A stretch of DNA of 64,000 bases from Sphingorhabdus sp. M41 (GTDB lineage Bacteria; Pseudomonadota; Alphaproteobacteria; Sphingomonadales; Sphingomonadaceae), in contig NZ_CP014545.1 in NCBI RefSeq assembly GCF_001586275.1, positions 62,001 through 126,000 of the forward strand, given 5' to 3'. The notes beneath the pieces are model-generated. The model had not been told where the DNA came from. It searched no databases and saw only the letters and a list, made by a program, of their open reading frames with translations. This document shows, piece after piece, positions 13,717 to 64,000 of this stretch. The position numbers and the translations under genes are program-made. The first letter of the stretch is position 1. Each line of letters begins with the position of its first letter.

Positions 13717-13804
13717 GGAGCCGTGGCAGAGTGGTCGATCGCGCACGCTTGGAAAGCGTGTATAGGGCAACCTATCGAGGGTTCGAATCCCTCCGGCTCC
13801 GCCA
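13717..13804 (+). tRNA. tRNA-Ser (anticodon GGA)
   Basis: The 7-bp acceptor stem GGAGCCG/CGGCTCC, D-arm, anticodon stem CACGC/GCGTG with loop TTGGAAA (GGA at 13751-13753), long variable arm (TATAGG-GCAA-CCTAT) and TTCGAAT T-loop are all present. The CCA end is encoded at 13802-13804. The class II variable arm and anticodon identify a serine tRNA reading UCC/UCU. Confidence 0.96.
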
Positions 13805-13972: not shown

Positions 13973-14764
13973 TCAGGGCTGGCCAGGTTCCGGCGTGAAG
14001 CGGATGTTGCCTTTTGCCAGGCCGCGTTCGACGATTTCCAGACCGCCGGACTTGATCATCCATTCCAGCCGGTGATCCCGATATTCACGCTTGAACAGGC
14101 CCGCCTCTACTGCCCCCGCGACCTGTTCCATCCCGGCGAGGACCGCTTGTGCCGCCTCTTGCGCCGCAGCGACAGAGGCACGTTGGTTCGCCCGGACAAG
14201 CCAAGCGGCAAGCTTCGATCCAGCGGGCGGCGAATAGCCGAAGCCGCTCGCTCCGTTGAGGAAGGGCGCCGCGCATAGATCGCCCCAGCCGAACCGATCA
14301 CCCGCAAACCACTCGGCTTCGCCCAGCTTTTCTTCCAGCCAGCGATGATAGGCCGCGATCTGATCGGCCGCCGCGACTTCAATCCTCTCGGCGAGTTCAC
14401 CCGCGCCCCGCTTGAACCAGTGCAATTCTCCCAAACCCCAGACGATCGCCTCGAACTGGGTATCCAGCATATCCTCGATGGCGCGCTGCTTTGCCCGTTC
14501 GACGGGGCCTTCGGGAAGCAAGGCGGGTTCGGGCCACTTGTCCTCGATATATTCGAGAATGATGGTCGAATCGAAGAGACATGTATCGCCGTCTATCAGC
14601 GCCGGCACTTCCAGACGCGGGCTGGCATCGGCGAAGGCATCCGGCACCCCGCCCGCTCCGATGCCGTCGGGAATGCGCGTTTCATAGGCGATGCCCTTCT
14701 CGTCTAGGGCAATCTTGATTTTCTGCGCATAGGGCGAAAGCGGGTGGTCATAAAGCAATATCAT
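13973..14764 (-). CDS. Glutathione S-transferase family protein
   Basis: This is a 263-residue GST. The N-terminal thioredoxin-like domain begins MILLYDHPLSPYAQKIKIAL, with the Ser/Tyr region that activates glutathione and a cis-Pro loop LEVPALIDGD followed by FDSTIILEYIED. An all-helical C-terminal domain carries WFAGDRFGWGDLCAAPFL with the conserved N-capping Asp. It probably conjugates or reduces electrophilic substrates with glutathione. It lies next to the oxygenase/CoA regulon but no shared operator is seen upstream of it, so a link is only suggestive. Confidence 0.88.
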   Translation of the reverse strand: MILLYDHPLSPYAQKIKIALDEKGIAYETRIPDGIGAGGVPDAFADASPRLEVPALIDGDTCLFDSTIILEYIEDKWPEPALLPEGPVERAKQRAIEDMLDTQFEAIVWGLGELHWFKRGAGELAERIEVAAADQIAAYHRWLEEKLGEAEWFAGDRFGWGDLCAAPFLNGASGFGYSPPAGSKLAAWLVRANQRASVAAAQEAAQAVLAGMEQVAGAVEAGLFKREYRDHRLEWMIKSGGLEIVERGLAKGNIRFTPEPGQP

Positions 14765-14909: not shown

Positions 14910-15800
14910 TTACTGCCAGGCCGTGTTGCCCGGCAGGCCGAGCCTGAGAGCGGCCTGATAAGCTGGAGACTCGGTGTCGACTTTCTTGTCTGCCTGCCGT
15001 CCGATGAATTTCACCATCAGCCTCTCCGGTAGCGAGAGGTTCCATTCCGGACCGAGATCGAGCTTCTCGCGCACGATCGGCGGCAGGATGTCGACGGCGG
15101 CGCGGGCAAGCGCGCGGTGGATGAAGGCGGGAATCTGCGGGCGCGCCTTTCCGGAGGAAACGATCTCGAGGAAATCGCTGTTGATCTGATGCGGTTCGAA
15201 GCGCGGAACCAGACGCTCCATCATGACAAGGAAATCGGCTTCGGAATGGGGGATTTCGGTGACGCCGTAGAGTTTCGCGATTTCGTCGCCGCCGGTCCAG
15301 TAGTCAAGCTTCTCTTCCTCGCTCAGTTTGTGGACGAAGCGATCGTAGGCGGTAAGGAAGCCATATTGCGCGGTGGCCGAGACCCAGTCGAGCAATTCGG
15401 GATCTTGCGCGGTATATTTCTCCCCGTTCGGGGTTTCGCCGGCAACCTTTGCGTGCATCCGGTTGACTCCGCCGATCACCCGCTGCGCCATGCTTTTCGG
15501 GCCATATACACCCAGCATCGCCGCCATGCCGGTCCGTTGCGAGCGGCCGATAGGATCGACCGGATAGACCGAATGGTCCCACACGCCGGACCGGATGCGC
15601 GCGTCGGCAAATTCGAGCAGCACCGCAGCGACCCCGCCAATACCCATGGCAATGCTGTTCTTGAAGATGCGCCAGTGCATCGAACCGGGCGCGCAAATGG
15701 CTTCCTCGCCTTCCGGCCTGGTGAAGTCTATCTTTGTCGGAGTCGTGCTCTTCTGATAGGTTCTGGTTGCCGGTTTTGTGATCGACGCATGTTCGTTCAT
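14910..15800 (-). CDS. MpaB/DUF2236-type oxygenase-like protein
   Basis: The 296-residue protein matches the DUF2236 family, which includes the fungal oxygenase MpaB and the rubber oxygenase Lcp. The family stretch is seen as RMHAKVAGETPNGEKYTAQD, DPELLDWVSATAQ, AYDRFVHKLSEEEKLDYW and ALARAAVDILPPIVREKL. His116 in RMHAKV is retained. The usual WVHAT His, a presumed haem or metal ligand in many members, is Ser141 here (codon 15378-15380). No signal peptide is seen; a hydrophobic stretch is at residues 50-64. It is divergent from the acyl-CoA dehydrogenase at 15883, with a TetR-type operator in the gap. Function as an oxygenase is inference. Confidence 0.75.
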   Translation of the reverse strand: MNEHASITKPATRTYQKSTTPTKIDFTRPEGEEAICAPGSMHWRIFKNSIAMGIGGVAAVLLEFADARIRSGVWDHSVYPVDPIGRSQRTGMAAMLGVYGPKSMAQRVIGGVNRMHAKVAGETPNGEKYTAQDPELLDWVSATAQYGFLTAYDRFVHKLSEEEKLDYWTGGDEIAKLYGVTEIPHSEADFLVMMERLVPRFEPHQINSDFLEIVSSGKARPQIPAFIHRALARAAVDILPPIVREKLDLGPEWNLSLPERLMVKFIGRQADKKVDTESPAYQAALRLGLPGNTAWQ

Positions 15801-15845
15801 GATGCCTAGGCCCTTCGCGCGGAGTTGACGTTATGGCGAAAGATG

Positions 15846-15861
15846 TTATCAGAACTGATAA
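15846..15861. promoter_or_regulatory. Putative TetR operator O1
   Basis: TTATCAGAACTGATAA is a perfect 7-bp inverted repeat with a 2-base spacer. It lies between the divergent MpaB-like and acyl-CoA dehydrogenase genes. The same motif recurs at 18232 and 18941, around the TetR gene. Confidence 0.8.
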
Positions 15862-15882
15862 ATGATGGCAAACGGATATAGT

Positions 15883-17112
15883 ATGAACCTCGATTGGTCC
15901 CCCGAAGACAAGGCATTTGCAGCCGATCACGCAGCGCTGCTCGAACGCGAGCTAACAGAGGATATCCGGGATGCCGGGCGGCATGCGACTAGCGTCTATC
16001 CCGACCACGAAGCCTCGATGGCGTGGCAACTGAAACTCAATGCAGCCGGTCTTGCGGCACCGCACTGGCCGGTCGAGCATGGCGGCAAGGAATGGAGCGT
16101 TGCCCAGCATTATCTCTACGCCAACGAAAAGGCGAAAGCAGGCGCGCCTTCGCTTTCGCCGATGGGCATCCATATGGTCGCCCACGTTATCGCCGCCTTT
16201 GGCACGCCCGAACAGAAGGATTATTTCCTGCCGCGCATTCTCACCGGTGAGGTGTTCTTCTGCCAGGGCTATTCCGAACCCAATGCCGGCTCCGATCTCG
16301 CTGCACTGCAAATGAGCGCCATTTCCGATGGCGAGGATTTTATACTCAATGGCTCGAAAATCTGGACCACGCATGCGCAGGAGGCGAACTGGATCTTCTG
16401 CCTCGTGCGCACCAGCAGCGAGGGCAGGAAACAGCAGGGTATCACGTTCATTCTGGTGCCGATGGACCGGGATGGCATAACCGTACGCCCCCTGACCATG
16501 CTGTCGGGCGAAACGGTGCAGAACCAGGTCTTCTTCGACGATGCCCGCGTGGCCAAGGCCAATGTCATTGGCGAAGTCGACGAGGGCTGGCGGGTGGCGA
16601 AATATTTGCTCGAGTTCGAGCGTGGCGGCTCGGCTTATTCGGCGGGCCTCAGGATTCGCGCGCAGGCAATTGAAAAACATGCGCTTGCACAGATGCGGGG
16701 AGACCGGCCGTATCACGAGCATGGCGACTTCGCCCAGCGGCTGGCGCGGGCCATGATCCGGATCGATGTCCTCGAAGTGCTGGAGCTGAAGCTGCTGTCA
16801 TCGGCTGGCCGGGGCCAGAGCGTGGGCGCCATGTCCTCCCTGATGAAGATCATGGGCACCGAACTGGCACAACATCTGACCGAACTCGCGCTCGAGATTG
16901 CCGGTCCGAGCGGAAGCGTGTTCCAGCCGCATCCGACTCGGCCAGGGGCAGACATTCCCGACTATCAAGCCCCCGAGGACGGATATGTCTCGGGCGAAAC
17001 CTGGCAGGCCATTGCGCCACTGCAATATCTCAACGAGCGAGCGGGTTCTATCTATGCGGGTTCAAACGAGGTGCAGCGCAATATCCTCGCCAAGGCCGTA
17101 CTCGGCCTCTAG
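15883..17112 (+). CDS. Acyl-CoA dehydrogenase, FadE26-like (flavin-bearing) subunit
   Basis: The 409-residue form starts at MNLDWSPEDKAFAADH. An upstream ATG at 15862 abuts the operator and lacks a ribosome site, so 15883 is preferred. The FAD/substrate signatures are CQGYSEPNAGSDLA (about residue 125), GSKIWTTHAQEA, the LLEFERGG motif that carries the likely catalytic Glu in this subfamily, and IYAGSNEVQRNILAKAVLGL at the C-terminus. The MCAD-type YEGT Glu is replaced by Ala. This resembles the catalytic subunit of heteromeric dehydrogenases that act on bulky acyl-CoAs. Its likely partner is the tail-to-tail gene at 17109, sharing the CTAG of both stop codons. Confidence 0.9.
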   Translation: MNLDWSPEDKAFAADHAALLERELTEDIRDAGRHATSVYPDHEASMAWQLKLNAAGLAAPHWPVEHGGKEWSVAQHYLYANEKAKAGAPSLSPMGIHMVAHVIAAFGTPEQKDYFLPRILTGEVFFCQGYSEPNAGSDLAALQMSAISDGEDFILNGSKIWTTHAQEANWIFCLVRTSSEGRKQQGITFILVPMDRDGITVRPLTMLSGETVQNQVFFDDARVAKANVIGEVDEGWRVAKYLLEFERGGSAYSAGLRIRAQAIEKHALAQMRGDRPYHEHGDFAQRLARAMIRIDVLEVLELKLLSSAGRGQSVGAMSSLMKIMGTELAQHLTELALEIAGPSGSVFQPHPTRPGADIPDYQAPEDGYVSGETWQAIAPLQYLNERAGSIYAGSNEVQRNILAKAVLGL

Positions 17113-18203
17113 GCGGCCTGCCGCGTCTTGCGATACCGCTCGACATGGTCGGCTGCACTGCCAAGCTTATATTCGAGCACCGTTGCGCGCTTGAAATAAT
17201 GGCCGACGCGTAGTTCTTCGGTCAGGCCCATCGCGCCGTGCAGCTGCACCGCTTCCTGACCGATCCGGCGCAGGCCATCGGAGGCAGTCGCCTTGGCTGC
17301 CGAAACTGCGCAGGGCTGATCGACCTTGAGCGCGGCCAGTAACGAGGCTGCCTCGATCTCCTGTGCTTTCGCCCACATGTCGACCATCCGATGCTGCAAC
17401 GCCTGGAAGGATGAAATCGGCACGCCGAATTGCTCACGCTCCTTGCTGTAGGCCACGGTGTCCTCAACCATGACCGAAGCAATCCCAGCACTTTCCGCGC
17501 ATAGCGCCGAAAGCGCGCGATCAACGGCCGCTTCAAGGGCTGGCAGGACCGAGTCCCCGCGCGCGATCAGGGCGTCGGCCGGGACATTGAAGCCGTCGAG
17601 CAGGATGTCCGCCGAAGGTGTATCGTCAATCAGGGCATATGGCTTGAGCGACGAACCGAGCGCGGCCGGTTCGACCGCGAAGAGGCCCAATTCGCCGTCT
17701 TCCAGCCGGGCCGGTATCAGGACAAGACTGGCATGGCTGGCGAAATCGACGACGAGTTTCGTGCCCGACAGGATCCAACCTTTCTCTGTCTCGCTTGCGC
17801 GGGTCTCGACCAGAGAGACATCACCCCGTGTCTGTGGCTCCTCGATAGCCGTAGTGACCAGCAGGCCTTCCCCTGCAATCGCCTTCGCAATATTGGTGGC
17901 ACCGACGCTGCCAAGCAGCGTGGCCGAAAGGACGTTGCAGGCAATATAGGGCGTGACGGCCAGCGCGCGTCCCTGGGCAGCAGCGATAGTCATCTCGCTT
18001 TGACTACCGCCGCCAAAGCCGCCCAGTTCCTCGGGCAGTCCCGCAGAAGCAACACCAAGCTCCGCATCCAACGCGCGCCAGAAAGCTAGAAATTCACCGC
18101 CGCCTTTCTGGCTGCGGCGGGTGTCAAACGGCAGACGCTTCTCGAGATATCGATCAAGCGATTGCTGGAGCAGTTGCTGGTCTTCGTCAAATTGTAGATT
18201 CAT
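17109..18203 (-). CDS. Acyl-CoA dehydrogenase, smaller FadE27-like subunit
   Basis: This 364-residue protein is a divergent member of the acyl-CoA dehydrogenase family. The N-terminal helical part is MNLQFDEDQQLLQQSLDRYL, the mid region lacks the canonical flavin-loop signature, and the C-terminal part is FGVPISSFQALQHRMVDMWA then QEAVQLHGAMGLTEELRVGH. This pattern fits the partner subunit of alpha2beta2 dehydrogenases such as mycobacterial ChsE4-ChsE5, which act on steroid side chains. Operator O2 lies 29 bases upstream of its start, so it is probably transcribed from its own TetR-controlled promoter. Its stop overlaps that of the facing subunit gene. Confidence 0.85.
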   Translation of the reverse strand: MNLQFDEDQQLLQQSLDRYLEKRLPFDTRRSQKGGGEFLAFWRALDAELGVASAGLPEELGGFGGGSQSEMTIAAAQGRALAVTPYIACNVLSATLLGSVGATNIAKAIAGEGLLVTTAIEEPQTRGDVSLVETRASETEKGWILSGTKLVVDFASHASLVLIPARLEDGELGLFAVEPAALGSSLKPYALIDDTPSADILLDGFNVPADALIARGDSVLPALEAAVDRALSALCAESAGIASVMVEDTVAYSKEREQFGVPISSFQALQHRMVDMWAKAQEIEAASLLAALKVDQPCAVSAAKATASDGLRRIGQEAVQLHGAMGLTEELRVGHYFKRATVLEYKLGSAADHVERYRKTRQAA

Positions 18204-18231
18204 GCCCGCGCTTATGACATGGCGAAGAAAA

Positions 18232-18247
18232 TTATCAAGTCTGATAA
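18232..18247. promoter_or_regulatory. Putative TetR operator O2
   Basis: TTATCAAGTCTGATAA sits in the 44-base gap between the acyl-CoA dehydrogenase start (18203, minus) and the TetR stop (18248). The 8-bp arms AATTATCA/TGATAATT are perfect; the central pair differs from O1 and O3. Confidence 0.75.
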
Positions 18248-18907
18248 TTAAACGAGCAGGCCCGCCATCAGCGTTTCAACCGTCTGCTTCTTGTAACGCT
18301 CGTGCAGCGCATCATCCGCCTCGGCAATTCCGCCAAATACGGCTGACAGTGTGAACCGGTTGGCATAGAGGCCATCGGCCGATCCGATCGTGTTGAAGTA
18401 GAACAGCTTGGGATCAACTTTGCGAAACTCGCCCGCCGCTATACCATCCTGAATGATCCGGTGCTGCGCGCTGGCAATCGGCTTGAGCAGTTCTTCCGCG
18501 ATATGATGAACGCGCTCGGGCGTGGCGTCGCGGACCATCAGCTGGATCAGGCGGTTGAGATAGGGAATCTGGTAATAGGTATCGAGTATGCCTTCGAGGT
18601 GAATGCGCATCCGTTCGGTTGGGCTGACATCGAGCCGGAACAGCGCTCCCAACTGCCTGATCCGGACACCGACGTCACGGTCCAGCAAGGCAAGCAACAT
18701 GCCTTCCTTGCTGCCGAAATAATAGCGGATCATGCCGTGATTGACCTCGGCGCGCGCGGCAATGTCGAGGATTCCGATCTCAACCGTGTCCAGTTCGCGC
18801 ATCAGCGCACTGGCCGCATCGAGCAGCGTTTCGCGGATCGCCCCCTTAGCCGATTGGCGGGTCGCAGTGGCGGACTGGGATCGTGTCATCCTTCTATCCA
18901 TGCGCAT
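18248..18907 (-). CDS. TetR/AcrR-family transcriptional regulator
   Basis: The protein is about 219 residues. The N-terminal HTH is ILDIAARAEVNHGMIRYYFG with the recognition helix ending in the typical YYFGSKEGML, followed by an all-helical ligand-binding domain. Possible starts are at 18907 (MRMDRR), 18901 and 18889 (MTRSQS); the choice is uncertain. It is divergent from the TonB receptor and upstream of a dehydrogenase on its own strand. Matching inverted repeats occur in the gaps on both sides of it and again at 15846, so it most likely represses the whole local set and itself until an acyl-CoA or related ligand binds. Confidence 0.9.
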   Translation of the reverse strand: MRMDRRMTRSQSATATRQSAKGAIRETLLDAASALMRELDTVEIGILDIAARAEVNHGMIRYYFGSKEGMLLALLDRDVGVRIRQLGALFRLDVSPTERMRIHLEGILDTYYQIPYLNRLIQLMVRDATPERVHHIAEELLKPIASAQHRIIQDGIAAGEFRKVDPKLFYFNTIGSADGLYANRFTLSAVFGGIAEADDALHERYKKQTVETLMAGLLV

Positions 18908-18940
18908 TTTGCCACTCGATAGCAATCGCTCTTGCTAAAA

Positions 18941-18973
18941 TTATCAGAGCTGATAATCTATCAAGCCTGATAA
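18941..18973. promoter_or_regulatory. Putative TetR operators O3 and O4 (tandem)
   Basis: TTATCAGAGCTGATAA at 18941-18956 is a perfect match to the O1 pattern. After one base there is a degenerate second copy, CTATCAAGCCTGATAA, at 18958-18973. The pair lies between the tetR start and the TonB receptor start at 19001, so it can control both. Confidence 0.8.
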
Positions 18974-19000
18974 CGTTTCGCAAAGATAACGGGGAGAGGA

Positions 19001-21499
19001 TTGATGAAGAGGATCACAAGGGACTTTTTCGCTTGTGGTGTGGCCGGAATTGCGCTGGGCCTGCCTTCTATGGGCCATGCGCAATCGGCCAGCGATGATG
19101 AAGTGGCGGCCGAACAGGGCGTAGATCGCAACGCCATCATTGTTACGGCCAACCGGCGCGAGGAAGCGATCACCGATGTCGGCGTCGCCATCCAGGCATT
19201 TTCGGGAGAGCAGCTCGACAAATTGCAGGTCAATTCGACCGAAGATCTTCAGGCCGTGGTTCCCAGCCTCAATGTGTCGAGAGGCTATCAGGGCATCCCG
19301 ATTTACACGCTGCGCGGAATCGGTTTCAACACCATCAACCTTTCGGCGACCTCGACGGTCGGCACCTATCAGGACGAAGTTGCACTCGCCTATCCGTTCA
19401 TGAACAGTGGCCCGGTGTTTGATCTTGAACGCGTCGAGGTTCTCAAGGGGCCGCAAGGCACGCTTTATGGACGCAATACGACCGGCGGCCTTGTCAACTT
19501 CATATCTGCCAAACCAGAATTCGGCGACTTCAACGGCAGCATCGCGGTTGATCTCGGGTCCGAGGAGACGCTCAACACCAAGGGACATCTCAATATCCCG
19601 ATCGGCGAGTCGGTTGCCCTGCGCGCAGCTTGGCGAACCGAACGCAGCTGGGAAGGCTGGCAGAAAAGTATCTCGCGCGACGAGAAACAGGGCCAAGTTG
19701 AACGCTACGGCGGTCGTTTGACGATCGCTGCCGACCCGATCCCCGATATGCATATCGAACTGGCAGCTAATTTCTGGGTCAACAAATCGGATACGCTGGC
19801 GGCACAGGCCGTAGGCTTCACGCCGAACACCGATCCGGCCAACGGCACGCTGTTCAGCCTTTTCAACGCTGCCGGGCTTCCCGCCTACGTGGCAGCCAAT
19901 GGCAATAACTGGAGCAGCGACACGGCCGACTGGCAACCGCTTGACCAGCGTGCACAGAATATCGGTCGCGGCACAGGGATCGACCGCCCTAATGCCGAAG
20001 ACAGCAATTTCTATGGTCTGCGCGCCATGTTGCAGTTCGACTTCACGCCCGATGTCAGCTTCATTTCGTTGACTGGCTTCAACCATGTGAAGCGCGATGC
20101 AAGCTATGACTGGAGCGGCGCGCCATATGAAATTCTCAGCCAGCATGCCGAAGGCGAAATCGACTCGCTTTCGCAGGAAATTCGTTTCCAGGGGACCACC
20201 GGCCCTGCCGAATGGGTCGTTGGCGGATATTATGCGAATGACAAGGTGGTCGATACCAACCAGACGTTGCTGGGCGAAAATGCGAATGTGGGCGCAATCC
20301 GCGCGCTGATCCTCGCTCCGCAGGCGGCGCTGGGTGGTGCGAGCATTTTCGATGCATTCAACACCTTCGGCTACACACCCGCCGACGTCCTGACATCCTT
20401 TCGTACCTATCGCGACGAGGCTGAATTCGACGTCGAAACCTTCAGTGCCTTCGCGAGTGCGGACTGGGAGCTTTCACCCTCGCTGACGCTGACCACCGGA
20501 ATCCGATACACTCAGGATACCCAGGATTACGAAGGCTGCTCGCGCGATTTGAACGGATCGATGCTGCCCAATGTGAACCTGTTCAACCGCTTTTTCTTCT
20601 TTACCAGTTATGGTGCGATCACCGCTCCGATATCGGAAAACCAGTGCAACACCTTCGACGTCGACACGCTGACCTTCGGACCCGTTACTTCAAGACTGAA
20701 GGAAGACAATGTCGCCTGGCGCGGGGCGCTGACCTGGCAGCCGAATGACGATACGCTGCTCTACGCCTCGGTATCGCGCGGATACAAAGCCGGCTCGACC
20801 CCGGTCAATGCTGCCAATATTGCCACGCAGAACCGCCCGGCACGGCAGGAGCAACTGACCGCCTACGAAGTCGGAACCAAGCTCGCTCTTGCCAATCTGT
20901 CGTTCAACCTCAACCTTGCCGGCTTCTATTATGACTATTCCGACAAGCAACTGGCGGTCTATTTCGCTGACCCGATCTACACGACTTTGCTGCGGCTCGA
21001 TAACATCCCTGAATCGCGGGCCTATGGCATCGACGGAGATTTCACCTGGTTTGCCACCGACGAGCTGACGCTATCGGTAGCGGCCACCTGGCTGCAAACG
21101 GAGATCATCGGTTACCAGGGCATCAATGCCGCTGGCCAGCCTCTGGATTATGACGGCTTTGCATTTCCCTACAGCCCCGAATTCTCGGGTGCCGCAACAA
21201 TCACTTATGATACGCCGATCACCTCTGACCTCGGTCTGCGTGCCATGGTAAATGGCCGCTACCAGTCATCCACTTCGAGTACGATTGAGGACTTCGATCC
21301 GCTGGCGATTGATAGCTACGGCATTCTCAACACCAGCCTTGCGCTCTACGATCTGGATGGTGTTTGGGAAGCCTCCATCTGGGGCCGCAACGTAACCGAC
21401 ACCTATTATTGGTCATCGGCCGCGACCAACGCGAATAGCGCGGTTCGCTTTCCCGGTCGTTCTGCCAGCTACGGTGCCACCGTCCGCATGCGCTTTTAA
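19001..21499 (+). CDS. TonB-dependent outer membrane receptor (TetR regulon)
   Basis: This is an 832-residue receptor with a signal peptide (ending SMGHAQ near residue 28) and a TonB box-like IIVTANRREEAI. The plug domain includes VEVLKGPQGTLYGRNTTGG (about 145-165). The beta-barrel includes the DNVAWRGALTWQPNDDTLLY and YKAGSTPVNAAN type strands and ends ASYGATVRMRF with C-terminal Phe. It should import a substrate too large for porins using the proton-motive force. Tandem operators sit just upstream. A strong hairpin separates it from the CoA ligase gene 53 bases downstream. Confidence 0.93.
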   Translation: MMKRITRDFFACGVAGIALGLPSMGHAQSASDDEVAAEQGVDRNAIIVTANRREEAITDVGVAIQAFSGEQLDKLQVNSTEDLQAVVPSLNVSRGYQGIPIYTLRGIGFNTINLSATSTVGTYQDEVALAYPFMNSGPVFDLERVEVLKGPQGTLYGRNTTGGLVNFISAKPEFGDFNGSIAVDLGSEETLNTKGHLNIPIGESVALRAAWRTERSWEGWQKSISRDEKQGQVERYGGRLTIAADPIPDMHIELAANFWVNKSDTLAAQAVGFTPNTDPANGTLFSLFNAAGLPAYVAANGNNWSSDTADWQPLDQRAQNIGRGTGIDRPNAEDSNFYGLRAMLQFDFTPDVSFISLTGFNHVKRDASYDWSGAPYEILSQHAEGEIDSLSQEIRFQGTTGPAEWVVGGYYANDKVVDTNQTLLGENANVGAIRALILAPQAALGGASIFDAFNTFGYTPADVLTSFRTYRDEAEFDVETFSAFASADWELSPSLTLTTGIRYTQDTQDYEGCSRDLNGSMLPNVNLFNRFFFFTSYGAITAPISENQCNTFDVDTLTFGPVTSRLKEDNVAWRGALTWQPNDDTLLYASVSRGYKAGSTPVNAANIATQNRPARQEQLTAYEVGTKLALANLSFNLNLAGFYYDYSDKQLAVYFADPIYTTLLRLDNIPESRAYGIDGDFTWFATDELTLSVAATWLQTEIIGYQGINAAGQPLDYDGFAFPYSPEFSGAATITYDTPITSDLGLRAMVNGRYQSSTSSTIEDFDPLAIDSYGILNTSLALYDLDGVWEASIWGRNVTDTYYWSSAATNANSAVRFPGRSASYGATVRMRF

Positions 21500-21552: not shown

Positions 21553-23391
21553 ATGACTGATACTGCTCCCCCGTTCCGCCCGCTTTCCCAGAAACCCGCC
21601 GCCGTGAATGTCGAGCGGCGCGACGATGGGACAATCCTTGTCTGGTCAAAGCATGAGCCGTTCGCCGTCCCGGCCAATCTCGCCACCATTTTCCGCGACC
21701 GCAGCGAGGCGCATCCCGATCATGCTCTTCTGTTTGAACGCAAGCCCGGTCATGGCGAGTGGGCAGGAGTCACCTGGGGCGAGGCACGGGCCGCGGCGGA
21801 TTCCATTGCGCAGTGGCTGATCGACCGCGGCTTTGGTCAGGACGACCCCGTCATGGTCATTTCCGGCAACTCGCTGGAACATGGCCTGCTGATGCTTGGC
21901 TGCTATACCGCAGGGGTACCGATCGCGCCGGTCAGTGCAGCCTATTCACTGATGTCGCAGGACCACGAGAAGCTGCTGCACTGTTTTCGCAAGATCGGCG
22001 CGAAGGTGGTCTTCGCCAAGGAAGGCAGCCTGCATGCGAAGGCGCTTGCACGACTGTTGGCGGAAGATCCCGAATTGACAATCGTCACCTGTGACGGCGT
22101 GCCGGAACAGGCTCTGGACTTCTCGCAGATATGCGCCGTGGAACCGGGCGCAGCGGTGGACGACCGCGTCGCCTCGATCGGCGCGGATACGGTGGGGAAA
22201 TATCTATTCACATCCGGTTCTACCGGAATGCCGAAATGTGTCCCGCAGACACATGGCATGATGACGACGCTGATCGCCGGACAGGAAGGACTGTCGAGCG
22301 AGGCACGCGAAGATCGCGAACCACCGGTGACACTTGAATGGATGCCATGGAGCCACATCAGTGGCGGCAATGTGTTTTTCAACGGCCACATCTGGTCGGG
22401 CGGCACAATGTATCTTGATGCCGGCAAGCCGCTCCCGGGCATGTTCGAAACCACGATCAGGAATCTCTACGAGATTTCCCCCACCGGCTTCGGTTCTGCG
22501 CCCGTCGCCTTCGCCATGCTGGCCGACGCTATGGAGAGTGACAGGAAGCTGCGCGCATCCTTTTTCAGCAAGGTGCAGTCTCTCGGCTATGGCGGAGCAA
22601 CTCTGTCAGACGATCTCTACGATCGCCTGCAAGCGCTGGCCATTGCCGAGACCGGGAAACGCATCCCGATTACCACCATGTACGGCGCAACCGAAACGCA
22701 GGGTATCACCATGGTCCACTGGGAGGTCGACCGCGTCGGCCTCATCGGTCTTCCGATGCCCGGCACCACATTGAAGCTGGTCCCCAACGGCCCCAAGATG
22801 GAGGTGCGCGTAAAAGGCCCGTCCGTCACCAAAGGCTATAAGGACGACCCGGAAAAAAATGCCGAGGCGTTCGACGAAGAAGGTTTCTATAAACTTGGCG
22901 ATGCGGCGCGGTTCCTTGATGATGATCATCCCGAAAAAGGCCTCGAGTTCGACGGCCGTGTGACCGAGGATTTCAAGCTCTCTACCGGTACGTGGGTGTC
23001 GGTCGGCACGCTTCGTCCGGAGATCGTCAGCGCGTGCAGCCCGCTGATCCATGACTGCGTAATCGCCGGTCAGGACAGGGATTTCGTTAGTATTCTGGCC
23101 TGGCCCAGCCCGACAGCGGCGCAAACCTATGCCGGAGAGAAGGGCCCGCAGGGGCTGACCGACCTGCTCGGTGACATCGCCGCGAAGCTGGCCGCATTCA
23201 ACAGAGCGGCCGGGGGAAGCTCTCGCAGGATCGGCAAGGTGATGCTGCTTACCGATCCGCCGTCGCTCGACGCCGGGGAAATTACCGACAAGGGATATAT
23301 CAACCAGGCAGCGGTTCTGTCGCTGCGCGCCAATGCCATCAAAGTGCTATATTCCAAAAAAAGTGCACCATTTGTCATGGAGATCGTCTGA
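21553..23391 (+). CDS. Feruloyl-CoA synthase-like acyl/aryl-CoA ligase
   Basis: This is a 612-residue ANL-superfamily ligase. The AMP-binding motif YLFTSGSTGMPKCVPQTHGM is near residue 216, the acid loop MYGATETQG near 376, and FYKLGDAARFLDDDHPEKGL then GRVTEDFKLSTGTWVSVG near 448-485 is characteristic of the feruloyl-CoA synthetase branch. The C-terminal EITDKGYINQAAVLSLRANA also matches. It should activate a carboxylic acid to its CoA thioester with ATP; the natural acid need not be ferulate. No hydratase/lyase or vanillin dehydrogenase typical of a ferulate pathway is adjacent. It belongs with the TetR regulon by position. Confidence 0.85.
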   Translation: MTDTAPPFRPLSQKPAAVNVERRDDGTILVWSKHEPFAVPANLATIFRDRSEAHPDHALLFERKPGHGEWAGVTWGEARAAADSIAQWLIDRGFGQDDPVMVISGNSLEHGLLMLGCYTAGVPIAPVSAAYSLMSQDHEKLLHCFRKIGAKVVFAKEGSLHAKALARLLAEDPELTIVTCDGVPEQALDFSQICAVEPGAAVDDRVASIGADTVGKYLFTSGSTGMPKCVPQTHGMMTTLIAGQEGLSSEAREDREPPVTLEWMPWSHISGGNVFFNGHIWSGGTMYLDAGKPLPGMFETTIRNLYEISPTGFGSAPVAFAMLADAMESDRKLRASFFSKVQSLGYGGATLSDDLYDRLQALAIAETGKRIPITTMYGATETQGITMVHWEVDRVGLIGLPMPGTTLKLVPNGPKMEVRVKGPSVTKGYKDDPEKNAEAFDEEGFYKLGDAARFLDDDHPEKGLEFDGRVTEDFKLSTGTWVSVGTLRPEIVSACSPLIHDCVIAGQDRDFVSILAWPSPTAAQTYAGEKGPQGLTDLLGDIAAKLAAFNRAAGGSSRRIGKVMLLTDPPSLDAGEITDKGYINQAAVLSLRANAIKVLYSKKSAPFVMEIV

Positions 23392-23750: not shown

Positions 23751-25916
23751 ATGATATTCCAGCAGCTGAAAAATATCCGCTCAATCGCATTACCGGCACT
23801 TGCAGCAGCGGCATGCGCGTTATCTGGATGCCAGACCGCGTCCAATCTAGCACCAGCGCCGTCAAATGATGTGCAGGCTGACATGCGGATGATCGATGCC
23901 GGTGCGTATCCGGCTACGGACGAACTTTTTGCCAAACCTTATATTGATGCCCAGGAATGGCGGGATGATCCTGTTCGGCATTTCTATGTCCATGGTGGAT
24001 TTGAAGGGACGGACACGCGCTTTTCCTATTATTTTCCGCCCGCCGGCCAATATGAGGGTCGTTTTTTCCAGCATGTCACGCCCGTGCCGGACAGCGAGAC
24101 GCTGGCTCAGAGGCTGCCGGCCGGAAAATTCAACAAGATCGGCTTCTCGGCAGCCAGCGGCGCTTATTTTATCGAAACCAATGGTGGCGGTACCATCGAT
24201 CTGACCGAAGGTTCCGAGGCGCTGGCGGACCCGACGATTACGGCTTACCGCGCAAATGCAGCCGCCGCGGCTTTTTCGCGCCATGTCGCGCAGCAATTCT
24301 ATGATCGCGAGGACCGGCCTTATGGCTATATTTACGGTGGTTCAGGCGGCGCTTTCCGCACGATAGGCGGTTTGGAAAGCACCAAGGGTGTCTGGGACGG
24401 CGGCGTGCCCTATGTCAACGGCTCGACAATGGCGATCCCGAACATGTTTACCGTGCGCATGCAGGCGCTGAGAGTATTGCGGGACAAGTTTCCGCAAATT
24501 GTCGATGCGCTCGAGCCGGGCGGCAGCGGCGATCCCTATGCCGGACTAACGGCCTATGAAGCCTCGGTATTGCGCGAAGCCGACAAGATGGGCTTTCCGA
24601 TGCCGAGCTGGTTTGGTTATCGCACCATGGGATTGCACGGCTTTGCCGCGCTCTATGGCGGTGTATCGATGGCGGATCCGAGCTATTTTACCGATTTCTG
24701 GACCAAGCCCGGCTATCTGGGCCACGATCACCCAGACCTGTTTGACGACGACCGGATGCAGCATGAAAGCCAGATCGTTGACCTGATAACAGCGGCAGAG
24801 GCAGCCCGGCTTGGCCTTGATGCCAATCCTTTCAGCGAAGCCAATCGGGGCGGCGTCGACACCGCGTTCATCCTTCCGCCTGGCGAAGATGGTTCGCGTA
24901 TCGTCGGCCTGCGACTTGCCAAGGCACCACCGGGAAAATATTTTCTTGGCGGCGAGCTTGTCCCGGAGAGCGGCAACAGCAAAGGTCAGCGGCTGTTTTT
25001 GAGCCGCATCATTGGTGATGTGGTCATGTTCGGCGTGGTGAACCCGGAGCAGGTCGCGCAATTGCAGGTTGGCGATGCAGTGAAAGTCGACAATTCAAAT
25101 TTTCTCGCGATGGAAAGCTACCACCGCCATCAGGTGCCGGGGCCGGATTTTCCGGTGTGGGACCATTATCGCGATGCGAAAGGCGAACCGCTTTACCCGC
25201 AGCGGCCGTTTCTGGTCGGTCCGCTTTTTGTTCAGTCCACTGCCGGCAGCCAGCTGACCGGAGAATATGACGGCAAGGCGATTCTCGTCGCCTCGCTCTG
25301 GGATCGTGAGGCGATGCCGTGGCAGGCCGACTGGTATCGTAAACGGGCCGAGGCGGCGGGAAGGGATATCCGCCTCTATTATACCGAGCACGCAACGCAT
25401 GGCGACGAGCCGCCAAGCGGCGACCAGAACCGCCTCGTTTCCTATCAGGGCGAGTTGCAGCAAGCCTTGCGTGTTCTGGCCGCCTGGGCCGAGGATGGAA
25501 CAGCGCCGCCAGAGAGCACGAGTTACCGTATCGAGGATGGGCAAGTCATCGTCCCCGATGTTGCTGACAGGCGTCTCGGTCTCCAGCCGGTTGTTGCGTT
25601 GACCGTCAATGGCGGGGAGCGCGCTGATGTCAGGGTAGGCGAACGCGTTCGTCTTGAAGGCCGAATCGCGGCACCGGCAGGTGGCGGGACGATCATGTCG
25701 GCCGGCTGGGATTTTCAGGGCAATGGCAACTATGTTCCGGTGGACCCGCTTATCACCGGAAAGACGCATGCATCGGTTTCGATCACCCATATGTTTGACC
25801 AGCCCGGCACATATTTCGTCGGTCTGCAGGGAATGTCACAGCCGGACGAGGCGCAGGGCAGCCCCTATGCCGAGCTGACCAATCTCGACCGGGTCCGGGT
25901 GGTGGTCAGCGAATAG
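23751..25916 (+). CDS. Lipoprotein with alpha/beta-hydrolase-like core and C-terminal PKD-like domain
   Basis: The 721-residue protein has a lipoprotein signal: hydrophobic ALPALAAAACA, then lipobox LSGC with Cys27. The body has a GGSGG nucleophile-elbow-like motif (YIYGGSGGAFRT, Ser198), acidic Asp/Glu-rich segments and a late YYTEHATHGDEPPSG with a candidate catalytic His. This layout recalls esterases of the tannase/feruloyl esterase kind. The last 100 residues or so (AGWDFQGNGNYVPVD, ITHMFDQPGTYFVGLQ) look like a PKD beta-sandwich. It is probably anchored in the outer membrane or periplasm and hydrolyses an ester before uptake. The enzyme class is inference; it could be a non-enzymatic binding lipoprotein. 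Confidence 0.6.
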   Translation: MIFQQLKNIRSIALPALAAAACALSGCQTASNLAPAPSNDVQADMRMIDAGAYPATDELFAKPYIDAQEWRDDPVRHFYVHGGFEGTDTRFSYYFPPAGQYEGRFFQHVTPVPDSETLAQRLPAGKFNKIGFSAASGAYFIETNGGGTIDLTEGSEALADPTITAYRANAAAAAFSRHVAQQFYDREDRPYGYIYGGSGGAFRTIGGLESTKGVWDGGVPYVNGSTMAIPNMFTVRMQALRVLRDKFPQIVDALEPGGSGDPYAGLTAYEASVLREADKMGFPMPSWFGYRTMGLHGFAALYGGVSMADPSYFTDFWTKPGYLGHDHPDLFDDDRMQHESQIVDLITAAEAARLGLDANPFSEANRGGVDTAFILPPGEDGSRIVGLRLAKAPPGKYFLGGELVPESGNSKGQRLFLSRIIGDVVMFGVVNPEQVAQLQVGDAVKVDNSNFLAMESYHRHQVPGPDFPVWDHYRDAKGEPLYPQRPFLVGPLFVQSTAGSQLTGEYDGKAILVASLWDREAMPWQADWYRKRAEAAGRDIRLYYTEHATHGDEPPSGDQNRLVSYQGELQQALRVLAAWAEDGTAPPESTSYRIEDGQVIVPDVADRRLGLQPVVALTVNGGERADVRVGERVRLEGRIAAPAGGGTIMSAGWDFQGNGNYVPVDPLITGKTHASVSITHMFDQPGTYFVGLQGMSQPDEAQGSPYAELTNLDRVRVVVSE

Positions 25917-63470: not shown

Positions 63471-64000
63471 ATGGCAGATGCAGATCCAGCAAGCTTGCAC
63501 CAGATTCCCTTCGCAGTGACCGATCCGGAACGGATTCCGTCGAAACGCTATTATGACGAGGATTTCTACAAGCTCGAGAACGAGAAGCTCTGGCCGCATG
63601 TCTGGCAGATGGCGGCCCGGCTCGAGCAGCTCGAAAATGTCGGCGATTGGGTCGAATATTCGAATCTCGGCAAGTCGGTCATCGTGGTGCGGGCGAAGGA
63701 GGGCATCAAGGCCTTTCACAACGCCTGTCGCCACCGCGGTGTTCCGGTTGCCGCGCCGGGCGGAGCGGGCAATTGCAAATCGGCCGGTTTCATCTGCCCC
63801 TTCCACGGCTGGCGCTGGAATCTCGAGGGGGAAAACACCTTCGTCTACGGCAAGCATTTCTTCAGCGAGGAACAGCTGGAGCAAGGCGATCTGGCGCTGC
63901 GCGGCTGCCGCGTGGAAACCGCGATCGGCTGCGCCTTCATCAATTTTGATGACGATGCGCCATCGCTGCGCGACAGCATCGGTCCGATGCTCGAGAAACT
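63471..64000 (+). CDS. Rieske ring-hydroxylating oxygenase alpha subunit, third, 3' truncated by window edge
   Basis: The open frame runs from ATG 63471 (MADADPASLHQIPFAVTDPE) to the end of the window. The visible 176 residues contain the full Rieske site: CRHRGVPVAAPGGAGNCKSA and FICPFHGWRWNLEG, with first Cys near residue 87 and CPFH near 111. The spacing between the Cys-His pairs is slightly longer than in the other two (a Gly/Ala-rich insert). The catalytic iron domain lies beyond the window. It reads in the direction of the ligase at 61771 and may share its operon. Confidence 0.9.
   Translation, partial: MADADPASLHQIPFAVTDPERIPSKRYYDEDFYKLENEKLWPHVWQMAARLEQLENVGDWVEYSNLGKSVIVVRAKEGIKAFHNACRHRGVPVAAPGGAGNCKSAGFICPFHGWRWNLEGENTFVYGKHFFSEEQLEQGDLALRGCRVETAIGCAFINFDDDAPSLRDSIGPMLEK

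Follow-up and report, generated by a model that had tools for sequence, protein, structure and literature searches.

A predicted TetR operator repeated around an MpaB and acyl-CoA dehydrogenase gene cluster of sphingomonads

Does a single regulator of the TetR family govern the uptake and degradation genes that surround it in Sphingorhabdus sp. M41, and through which DNA sites would it do so? The question is raised by a stretch of 64,000 nucleotides (contig NZ_CP014545.1, positions 62,001 to 126,000; hereafter the window, numbered from its first base), in which a tetR gene lies among genes for an MpaB/Lcp-type oxygenase, the large and small subunits of an acyl-coenzyme A (acyl-CoA) dehydrogenase (ACAD), a TonB-dependent receptor and a CoA ligase. 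Four copies of an inverted repeat, O1 to O4, occupy the three gaps around tetR, all between genes. These dyads are very probably the binding sites of the TetR protein encoded at 18248-18889, and, judging from the sequences compared, we hold it to be highly likely that this protein is a local repressor acting through them on four genes, those for MpaB, the two ACAD subunits and the TonB receptor. That one TetR would act on all of these follows from the conservation of the dyads, their specificity within the genome, their co-occurrence with the regulator and an unlinked pair of targets in one relative. Their placement on the predicted MpaB, large-ACAD and TonB receptor promoters, marked by promoter-like boxes at fixed distances, makes a local repressor the most likely form of control.

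The original prediction had described perfect copies of TTATCAG-N2-CTGATAA at O1 and O3, a variant at O2 and a degenerate copy at O4, and no others in the window. Scoring against the pattern TTATCAGNNCTGATAA bore out the perfect and variant copies, with no mismatch at O1 and O3 and one at O2. Within the window this pattern has six matches with at most three mismatches, versus 1.14 expected from 100 shuffles (largest value, 4); the two besides O1 to O4, at positions 514 and 13970, carry three mismatches each. The looser pattern TTATCARNNYTGATAA adds one match with two mismatches at the end of the window (63937-63952). O2 directly adjoins the tetR stop codon, and the divergent tetR/TonB gap measures 114 bp. 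O1 is intergenic if the large-ACAD gene starts at the ATG at 15883, which is conserved in 9/9 aligned loci, and not at 15862 as placed by the open reading frame (ORF) caller; given that start, all four copies do lie in the gaps around tetR.

To assess conservation, the window was set beside 21 loci from named sphingomonads, each with a TetR relative (50-89% identity), taken from one seed-based, non-exhaustive scan of genome contigs (our labels L and G denote loci and genomes). Loci L017-L023 were not pooled with L046-L066, several of them looking like the same species. A dyad with at most two mismatches was present in 19/19 tetR/small-ACAD gaps (18 perfect), in 18/18 large-ACAD/MpaB gaps (11 perfect, all 18 with at most one mismatch) and in 19/22 stretches upstream of tetR (6 perfect, 16 with at most one mismatch), versus 0.01-0.03 loci expected at the same threshold from 100 dinucleotide shuffles per gap. 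Comparison of intergenic regions in relatives, as the original prediction had proposed, thus supports the sites. In aligned subsets of the gaps (9, 14 and 10 sequences) the DNA outside the dyads diverges, apart from short conserved boxes.

The predicted consensus that emerges is TTATCA-N4-TGATAA, with TTATCA as the half-site, conserved arms and a variable centre. Among the sites found the arms are near-invariant but for position 16, where the 31 sites upstream of tetR divide into 17 with A and 14 with G. The central four bases differ between gaps and between loci, with G at position 7 kept in 18/19 tetR/small-ACAD sites. The strict TTATCAG-N2-CTGATAA motif was consequently rejected as over-specified, since its inner G and C, earlier taken as a fixed part, vary among loci. 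The copy earlier called degenerate does have two mismatches, but it belongs to a conserved arrangement: tandem dyads were found in 12 of the 17 tetR/TonB gaps, spaced 17 bp apart in five (the window included) and 16 bp in seven, and O4 is therefore a conserved second operator. The remaining five gaps hold a single dyad at the same threshold.

The sites are also specific within the host genome, a single contig of 3,339,521 bases. With TTATCARNNYTGATAA, all three perfect copies and four of the six copies with at most one mismatch fall inside the cluster, while a reversed control pattern gave one match at the latter threshold. With up to two mismatches the motif has 26 matches versus 17 for the control, and looser genomic matches are hence mostly background. 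The genome-wide scan thus found no scatter of perfect copies over unrelated promoters; the distribution of perfect and one-mismatch sites confines the predicted regulon to the cluster. Two copies elsewhere, each with at most one mismatch, were rejected as members. One, at genome position 1898371, lies inside the end of a coding frame beside an infB-like gene. The other, TTATCAATATTGATTA at 2426142 (L006), lies in the space separating a feoB-like frame from the large frame that follows; both names were read from translations. The same 16-mer occurs in same-genus genomes G203, G243 and G153, all without a close TetR relative, and is possibly the site of another regulator.

A further line of evidence ties the dyads to this particular TetR. 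The perfect dyad was sought in 397 genomes of the family, and 13 were positive. It was present in seven of the eight genomes encoding a TetR with 60% identity or more along most of the protein (G000, G323, G078, G264, G111, G340, G099 and G148), versus 6/389 others (Fisher P 4.6e-11); G101, whose match (69%) spans only 96 residues, went into the latter group. Four of the six other positive genomes (G023, G068, G157 and G202) hold a paralogue of 36-40% identity, and around six fetched copies of the eight perfect ones in these other genomes none of ten window proteins was found within 1.5 kb. In six TetR-bearing genomes, by comparison, all 15 perfect dyads stand beside tetR, ACAD or MpaB genes. 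No perfect dyad was present in ten genomes without a close TetR relative, nine of the same genus and one from elsewhere in the family.

Paralogues and rearranged loci point in the same direction. None of 22 loci encoding paralogues of 40-49% identity (L024-L045) has a dyad with at most two mismatches in about 1.5 kb of flanking sequence to each side; palindromes with arms of at least 7 occur upstream of these roughly 40% paralogues in 4/22 loci, and none is shared. The recognition helix reads N(S/A)ALVKYYF in the paralogues and VNHxMIRY(Y/F)F in dyad-bearing loci. In G111 the MpaB and large-ACAD genes map to about 0.76 Mb and tetR to about 3.17 Mb on the same contig, a separation of about 2.4 Mb along the contig or, should the contig be circular, about 0.9 Mb in the opposite direction; the MpaB/large-ACAD gap nevertheless retains dyads of one and two mismatches. 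A tetR of 65% identity has a perfect dyad amid otherwise different neighbours in L063 and in G148 (L023/L115; probably the same species). As a control with MpaB itself, 7 of 29 MpaB loci carry the dyad in the ACAD gap and the other 22 have none, a contrast weaker than it appears because those 22 also lack an adjacent large-ACAD gene.

The operators keep constant offsets from promoter-like boxes, predicted from sequence, at three of the five promoters (MpaB, large ACAD and TonB receptor). On the MpaB side, TTGC lies 10 nt before the operator in 14/18 loci; on the large-ACAD side, TTGAC lies 21 nt before it in 13/18 and TG immediately before it in 15/18; on the TonB side, TTGC lies 9 nt before it in 13/17. 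In 500 base-order shuffles the largest counts were 4 (MpaB TTGC), 2 (large-ACAD TTGAC) and 2 (TonB TTGC). Four Novosphingobium loci (L053, L055, L058 and L066) depart from these offsets on the MpaB and TonB sides, and they and L050 do so on the large-ACAD side. In the window, O1 takes in the large-ACAD -10-like box and reaches over the greater part of the MpaB spacer, together with half of the MpaB -10-like box. O3 starts 9 nt downstream of the point where the predicted TonB -35-like box starts.

Several observations weigh against this account or narrow it. No conserved -35 box was found for tetR (commonest offset 2/17), and that of the small-ACAD gene is weak (5/19), leaving both promoters unplaced; a generic promoter scan of 15700-19100 returned three hits versus 1.2 in shuffles, one of them the MpaB promoter. 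Sites were chosen by motif similarity, so the arm invariance and column counts arise partly by construction, and because loci and genomes are related, neither the counts nor the Fisher P represent independent events. L022 (61% identical TetR, helix VNHAMVKYHF) has no dyad, and neither does its genome, G099, at the MpaB gene. L065 (50% identical) lacks it too, though its helix, VNHAMIRYFF, is that of dyad-bearing Novosphingobium loci. In G078 (L018) the CoA ligase gene is directly beside tetR with no operator between them, an argument against direct control of the ligase. The dyad upstream of tetR is missing there and in three other loci (L049, L054 and L065), all three of which lack an orthologous TonB receptor gene beside tetR; these absences speak against autoregulation as a general rule. 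Such a receptor gene is also absent beside tetR in L048 and L063, which have the dyad; in L063 the gene to the left of tetR appears to encode another TonB receptor.

The predicted target list is affected accordingly. Control of the MpaB, ACAD and TonB receptor genes, as originally proposed, is supported by dyads that are conserved, specific and associated with the TetR. Control of tetR by its own product fared less well and is the least certain part: the upstream dyad is present in 17/17 loci with an adjacent orthologous TonB gene, but in 2/5 of the others, and no conserved -35 box was found. For the CoA ligase, tentatively included before, no dyad was found in the receptor/ligase gap of the window or of 6/6 relatives with the same adjacency; this gene is probably transcribed by read-through from the TonB receptor gene, the one route by which it would join the regulon.

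Could the dyads have another meaning? That they arose by chance or serve as structural elements, terminators for instance, is scarcely credible: inverted repeats are able to form hairpins, but shuffling yields at most 0.03 loci per gap type and the same dyad recurs upstream of divergent starts. A terminator scan found none at the dyad positions. Recognition by a different DNA-binding protein would accommodate both the copy of TTATCAATATTGATTA near the feoB-like gene, shared with three same-genus genomes lacking a close TetR relative, and the matching helix of the dyad-less L065. It is nonetheless very unlikely, given that perfect copies track this TetR over the 397 genomes, that they remain next to tetR amid different neighbours (L063) and that paralogues with a different recognition helix are without them.

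Nor can the sign of control be read from sequence, and TetR-family activators do exist, AtrA being a described example (PMC3511530). An activator or dual regulator binding the same operators is, however, an unlikely reading here, for O1 extends into the predicted -10 boxes of both the MpaB and the large-ACAD promoters, an arrangement that favours exclusion of the polymerase.

Under the preferred reading, local repression, a TetR dimer would bind each TTATCA-N4-TGATAA dyad. O1 would thereby cover two overlapping and opposed promoters, those of MpaB and the large ACAD, O2 would act immediately upstream of the small-ACAD gene, and the tandem O3 and O4 would be occupied between the divergent tetR and TonB receptor genes, from just past the TonB -35-like box onwards. 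From the habits of the family and the operator positions, the bound repressor would be expected to shut out RNA polymerase. A pathway intermediate, most plausibly, at a guess, a CoA thioester from the CoA ligase or ACAD steps, would release it, and release would jointly induce the MpaB-type oxygenase, the two-subunit ACAD and the TonB receptor, with read-through extending the induction to the CoA ligase.

The gene products themselves say little about the substrate. The TetR protein has an N-terminal helix-turn-helix domain (PF00440, 33.0 bits versus a Pfam cut-off of 24) and a C-terminal ligand/dimer domain (PF14514, 126 bits versus 25.3), and it scores below the cut-offs of the NCBIfam equivalogs RutR (44.6/368 bits), FadR (39.2/200) and BetI (32.7/201.3). 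Its ORF is listed from 18925; the ATG at 18889 was taken as the start from where relatives align. The best models for the ACAD subunits, PimC (299.5/623.85 bits) and PimD (210.7/652.7), are so far under their cut-offs that no substrate can be deduced from the names. A glutathione S-transferase (GST)-like gene follows MpaB at a distance of 148 nt here, 31 nt in three relatives and 1130 nt in one; it may be co-transcribed with MpaB as a possible read-through member of the regulon. Between the CoA ligase gene and a P450 gene, a 721-residue protein (23751-25916) matched nothing in Pfam or NCBIfam at E 0.001.

Table 1. Predicted features of the cluster in window coordinates; promoters and operators are predictions.
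Feature	Position	Strand	Details
Large-ACAD promoter, predicted	15825-15852	+	TTGACG (15825-15830), 16-nt spacer, TATCAG (15847-15852) preceded by TGT
MpaB promoter, predicted	15843-15871	-	TTGCCA, 17-nt spacer, TAACAT
TonB-receptor -35-like box, predicted	18932-18937	+	TTGCTA; -10 not clearly placed
Operator O1, predicted	15846-15861	.	TTATCAGAACTGATAA; between divergent MpaB and large-ACAD genes; 0 mismatches to TTATCAGNNCTGATAA
Operator O2, predicted	18232-18247	.	TTATCAAGTCTGATAA; 44-bp gap, tetR stop codon to small-ACAD start; 1 mismatch to TTATCAGNNCTGATAA
Operator O3, predicted	18941-18956	.	TTATCAGAGCTGATAA; divergent tetR/TonB gap, tetR-proximal of pair; 0 mismatches to TTATCAGNNCTGATAA
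Operator O4, predicted	18958-18973	.	CTATCAAGCCTGATAA; 17 bp from O3, TonB-receptor-proximal, tandem second operator; 2 mismatches to TTATCAGNNCTGATAA
TetR-family regulator (TetR_N + TetR_C_9)	18248-18889	-	ORF, Pfam, relatives
MpaB/Lcp-type oxygenase (PF09995), predicted target	14910-15800	-	ORF, Pfam
ACAD, large (PimC-like) subunit, predicted target	15883-17112	+	ORF, Pfam, NCBIfam
ACAD, small (PimD-like) subunit, predicted target	17109-18203	-	ORF, Pfam, NCBIfam
TonB-dependent receptor, predicted target	19004-21499	+	ORF listed from TTG 19001; ATG at 19004; Pfam
Acyl-CoA synthetase/CoA ligase (PRK12582 subfamily)	21553-23391	+	53 nt after TonB receptor gene
Glutathione S-transferase-like gene	13973-14764	-	Downstream of MpaB, same strand

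Comparison with known systems places the switch in familiar company. The closest solved relative by sequence is a TetR-family regulator in the Protein Data Bank (2qtq / 2rha; E 3.7e-44 over residues 20-214), presumably from Novosphingobium aromaticivorans, and we suspect that this protein belongs with the roughly 40% identical paralogues that lack the dyad. The mycobacterial repressor of the Rv3574 type, which we take to be KstR, offers another parallel. It likewise represses degradation genes, in a lipid-degradation regulon that is large by the title of the paper, versus one cluster here (PMC1995591).

Among the described cases found, EdcR of Caenibius tardaugens is the nearest in mode of action (PMC8700777). 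EdcR is a TetR-type repressor of the estrogen edc cluster, for which a palindrome over -10 boxes has been proposed; it shares with the present system a sphingomonad catabolic cluster with ACAD and TonB receptor genes and, as a proposal in both cases, a palindromic operator that overlaps -10 boxes at more than one promoter. It differs in its proposed operator, TnnCnnTACnAnTnGTAnnGnnA versus TTATCA-N4-TGATAA, in its effector domain, PF16859 as read from the passage versus PF14514, and in that the edc substrate, estrogen, is known. The TetR was accordingly rejected as an EdcR orthologue, operator and effector domain being different by the paper's description.

The same species has a bile-salt cluster, bsd I, whose described portion also combines a TetR gene (EGO55_16300) with genes for a two-subunit ACAD, a CoA ligase and a monooxygenase, and the neighbouring EGO55_16295 is listed among transporter-related genes (PMC12882949). 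The palindromes suggested there, ATAGGGCCATTG and GCATGCGGGATGC, are unlike TTATCA-N4-TGATAA, and by description amidohydrolase, MaoC and hydrolase genes take the place of MpaB and GST. For N. aromaticivorans, an announcement of DNA affinity purification sequencing (DAP-seq) lists 44 regulators, given by locus tag (PMC12352068). A literature search with the motif letters and cluster terms revealed no matching regulon among the titles and abstract openings listed, which is not proof that none has been published.

The cluster has a patchy distribution, as indicated by nine sampled genomes of the same genus (G089, G153, G203, G243, G278, G309, G355, G375 and G394) that have no close TetR relative (best identity, 36-38%) and no MpaB gene at E 1e-60. 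It may have been acquired, and a tRNA-Ser(GGA) gene at 13717-13804, just before its GST end, could be a candidate mark of the insertion place. Altererythrobacter xiamenensis has two copies of the cluster (L047 and L064), each with dyads, and G323 likewise has two.

The four Novosphingobium loci that depart from the promoter-box offsets have an extra gene family between large ACAD and MpaB, TetR-like in L058 by its translation, and ligase-like and monooxygenase-like families nearby (L058 translations). A one-mismatch dyad, TTGTCAACGCTGATAA, stands at the far end of L058 (16193-16208) and L066 (16153-16168) and also in G340, and is a possible further target. The TonB receptor gene of L052 (5386-7883) and the CoA ligase gene of L050 (3571-5365) align in pieces, which suggests frameshifts or assembly errors. 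In the window itself, a second large catabolic region (28000-63400) has no dyad at up to one mismatch; it encodes major facilitator superfamily transporters, short-chain dehydrogenases/reductases, another TonB receptor, a flavoprotein, two Rieske oxygenases, adenosine monophosphate (AMP) ligases, ACADs, an HpcH-type aldolase, a CoA-transferase and TauD-type dioxygenases.

As a tentative proposal, which we regard as possible and on balance doubtful, the cluster might carry out an undescribed CoA-dependent degradation in sphingomonads. The TonB receptor would import some hydrophobic compound (an isoprenoid acid or a steroid-like one are examples), whose chain would be attacked by the two-subunit ACAD and the MpaB/Lcp-type oxygenase. 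The TetR would sense an acyl-CoA of the pathway, and the tandem operators, spaced 16-17 bp, would allow two dimers to gate two opposing promoters out of a single gap.

Taken together, these results amount to a well-supported prediction of a regulon of an ordinary bacterial switch type, whose interest lies in the MpaB/ACAD pathway that it delimits. An uptake and degradation cluster spread patchily among sphingomonads (Erythrobacteraceae, Novosphingobium, Sphingopyxis and others) is thereby given a predicted regulator, operator and list of targets. The operator would permit a reporter screen for the inducer, which would in turn point to the substrate of the MpaB/ACAD pathway.

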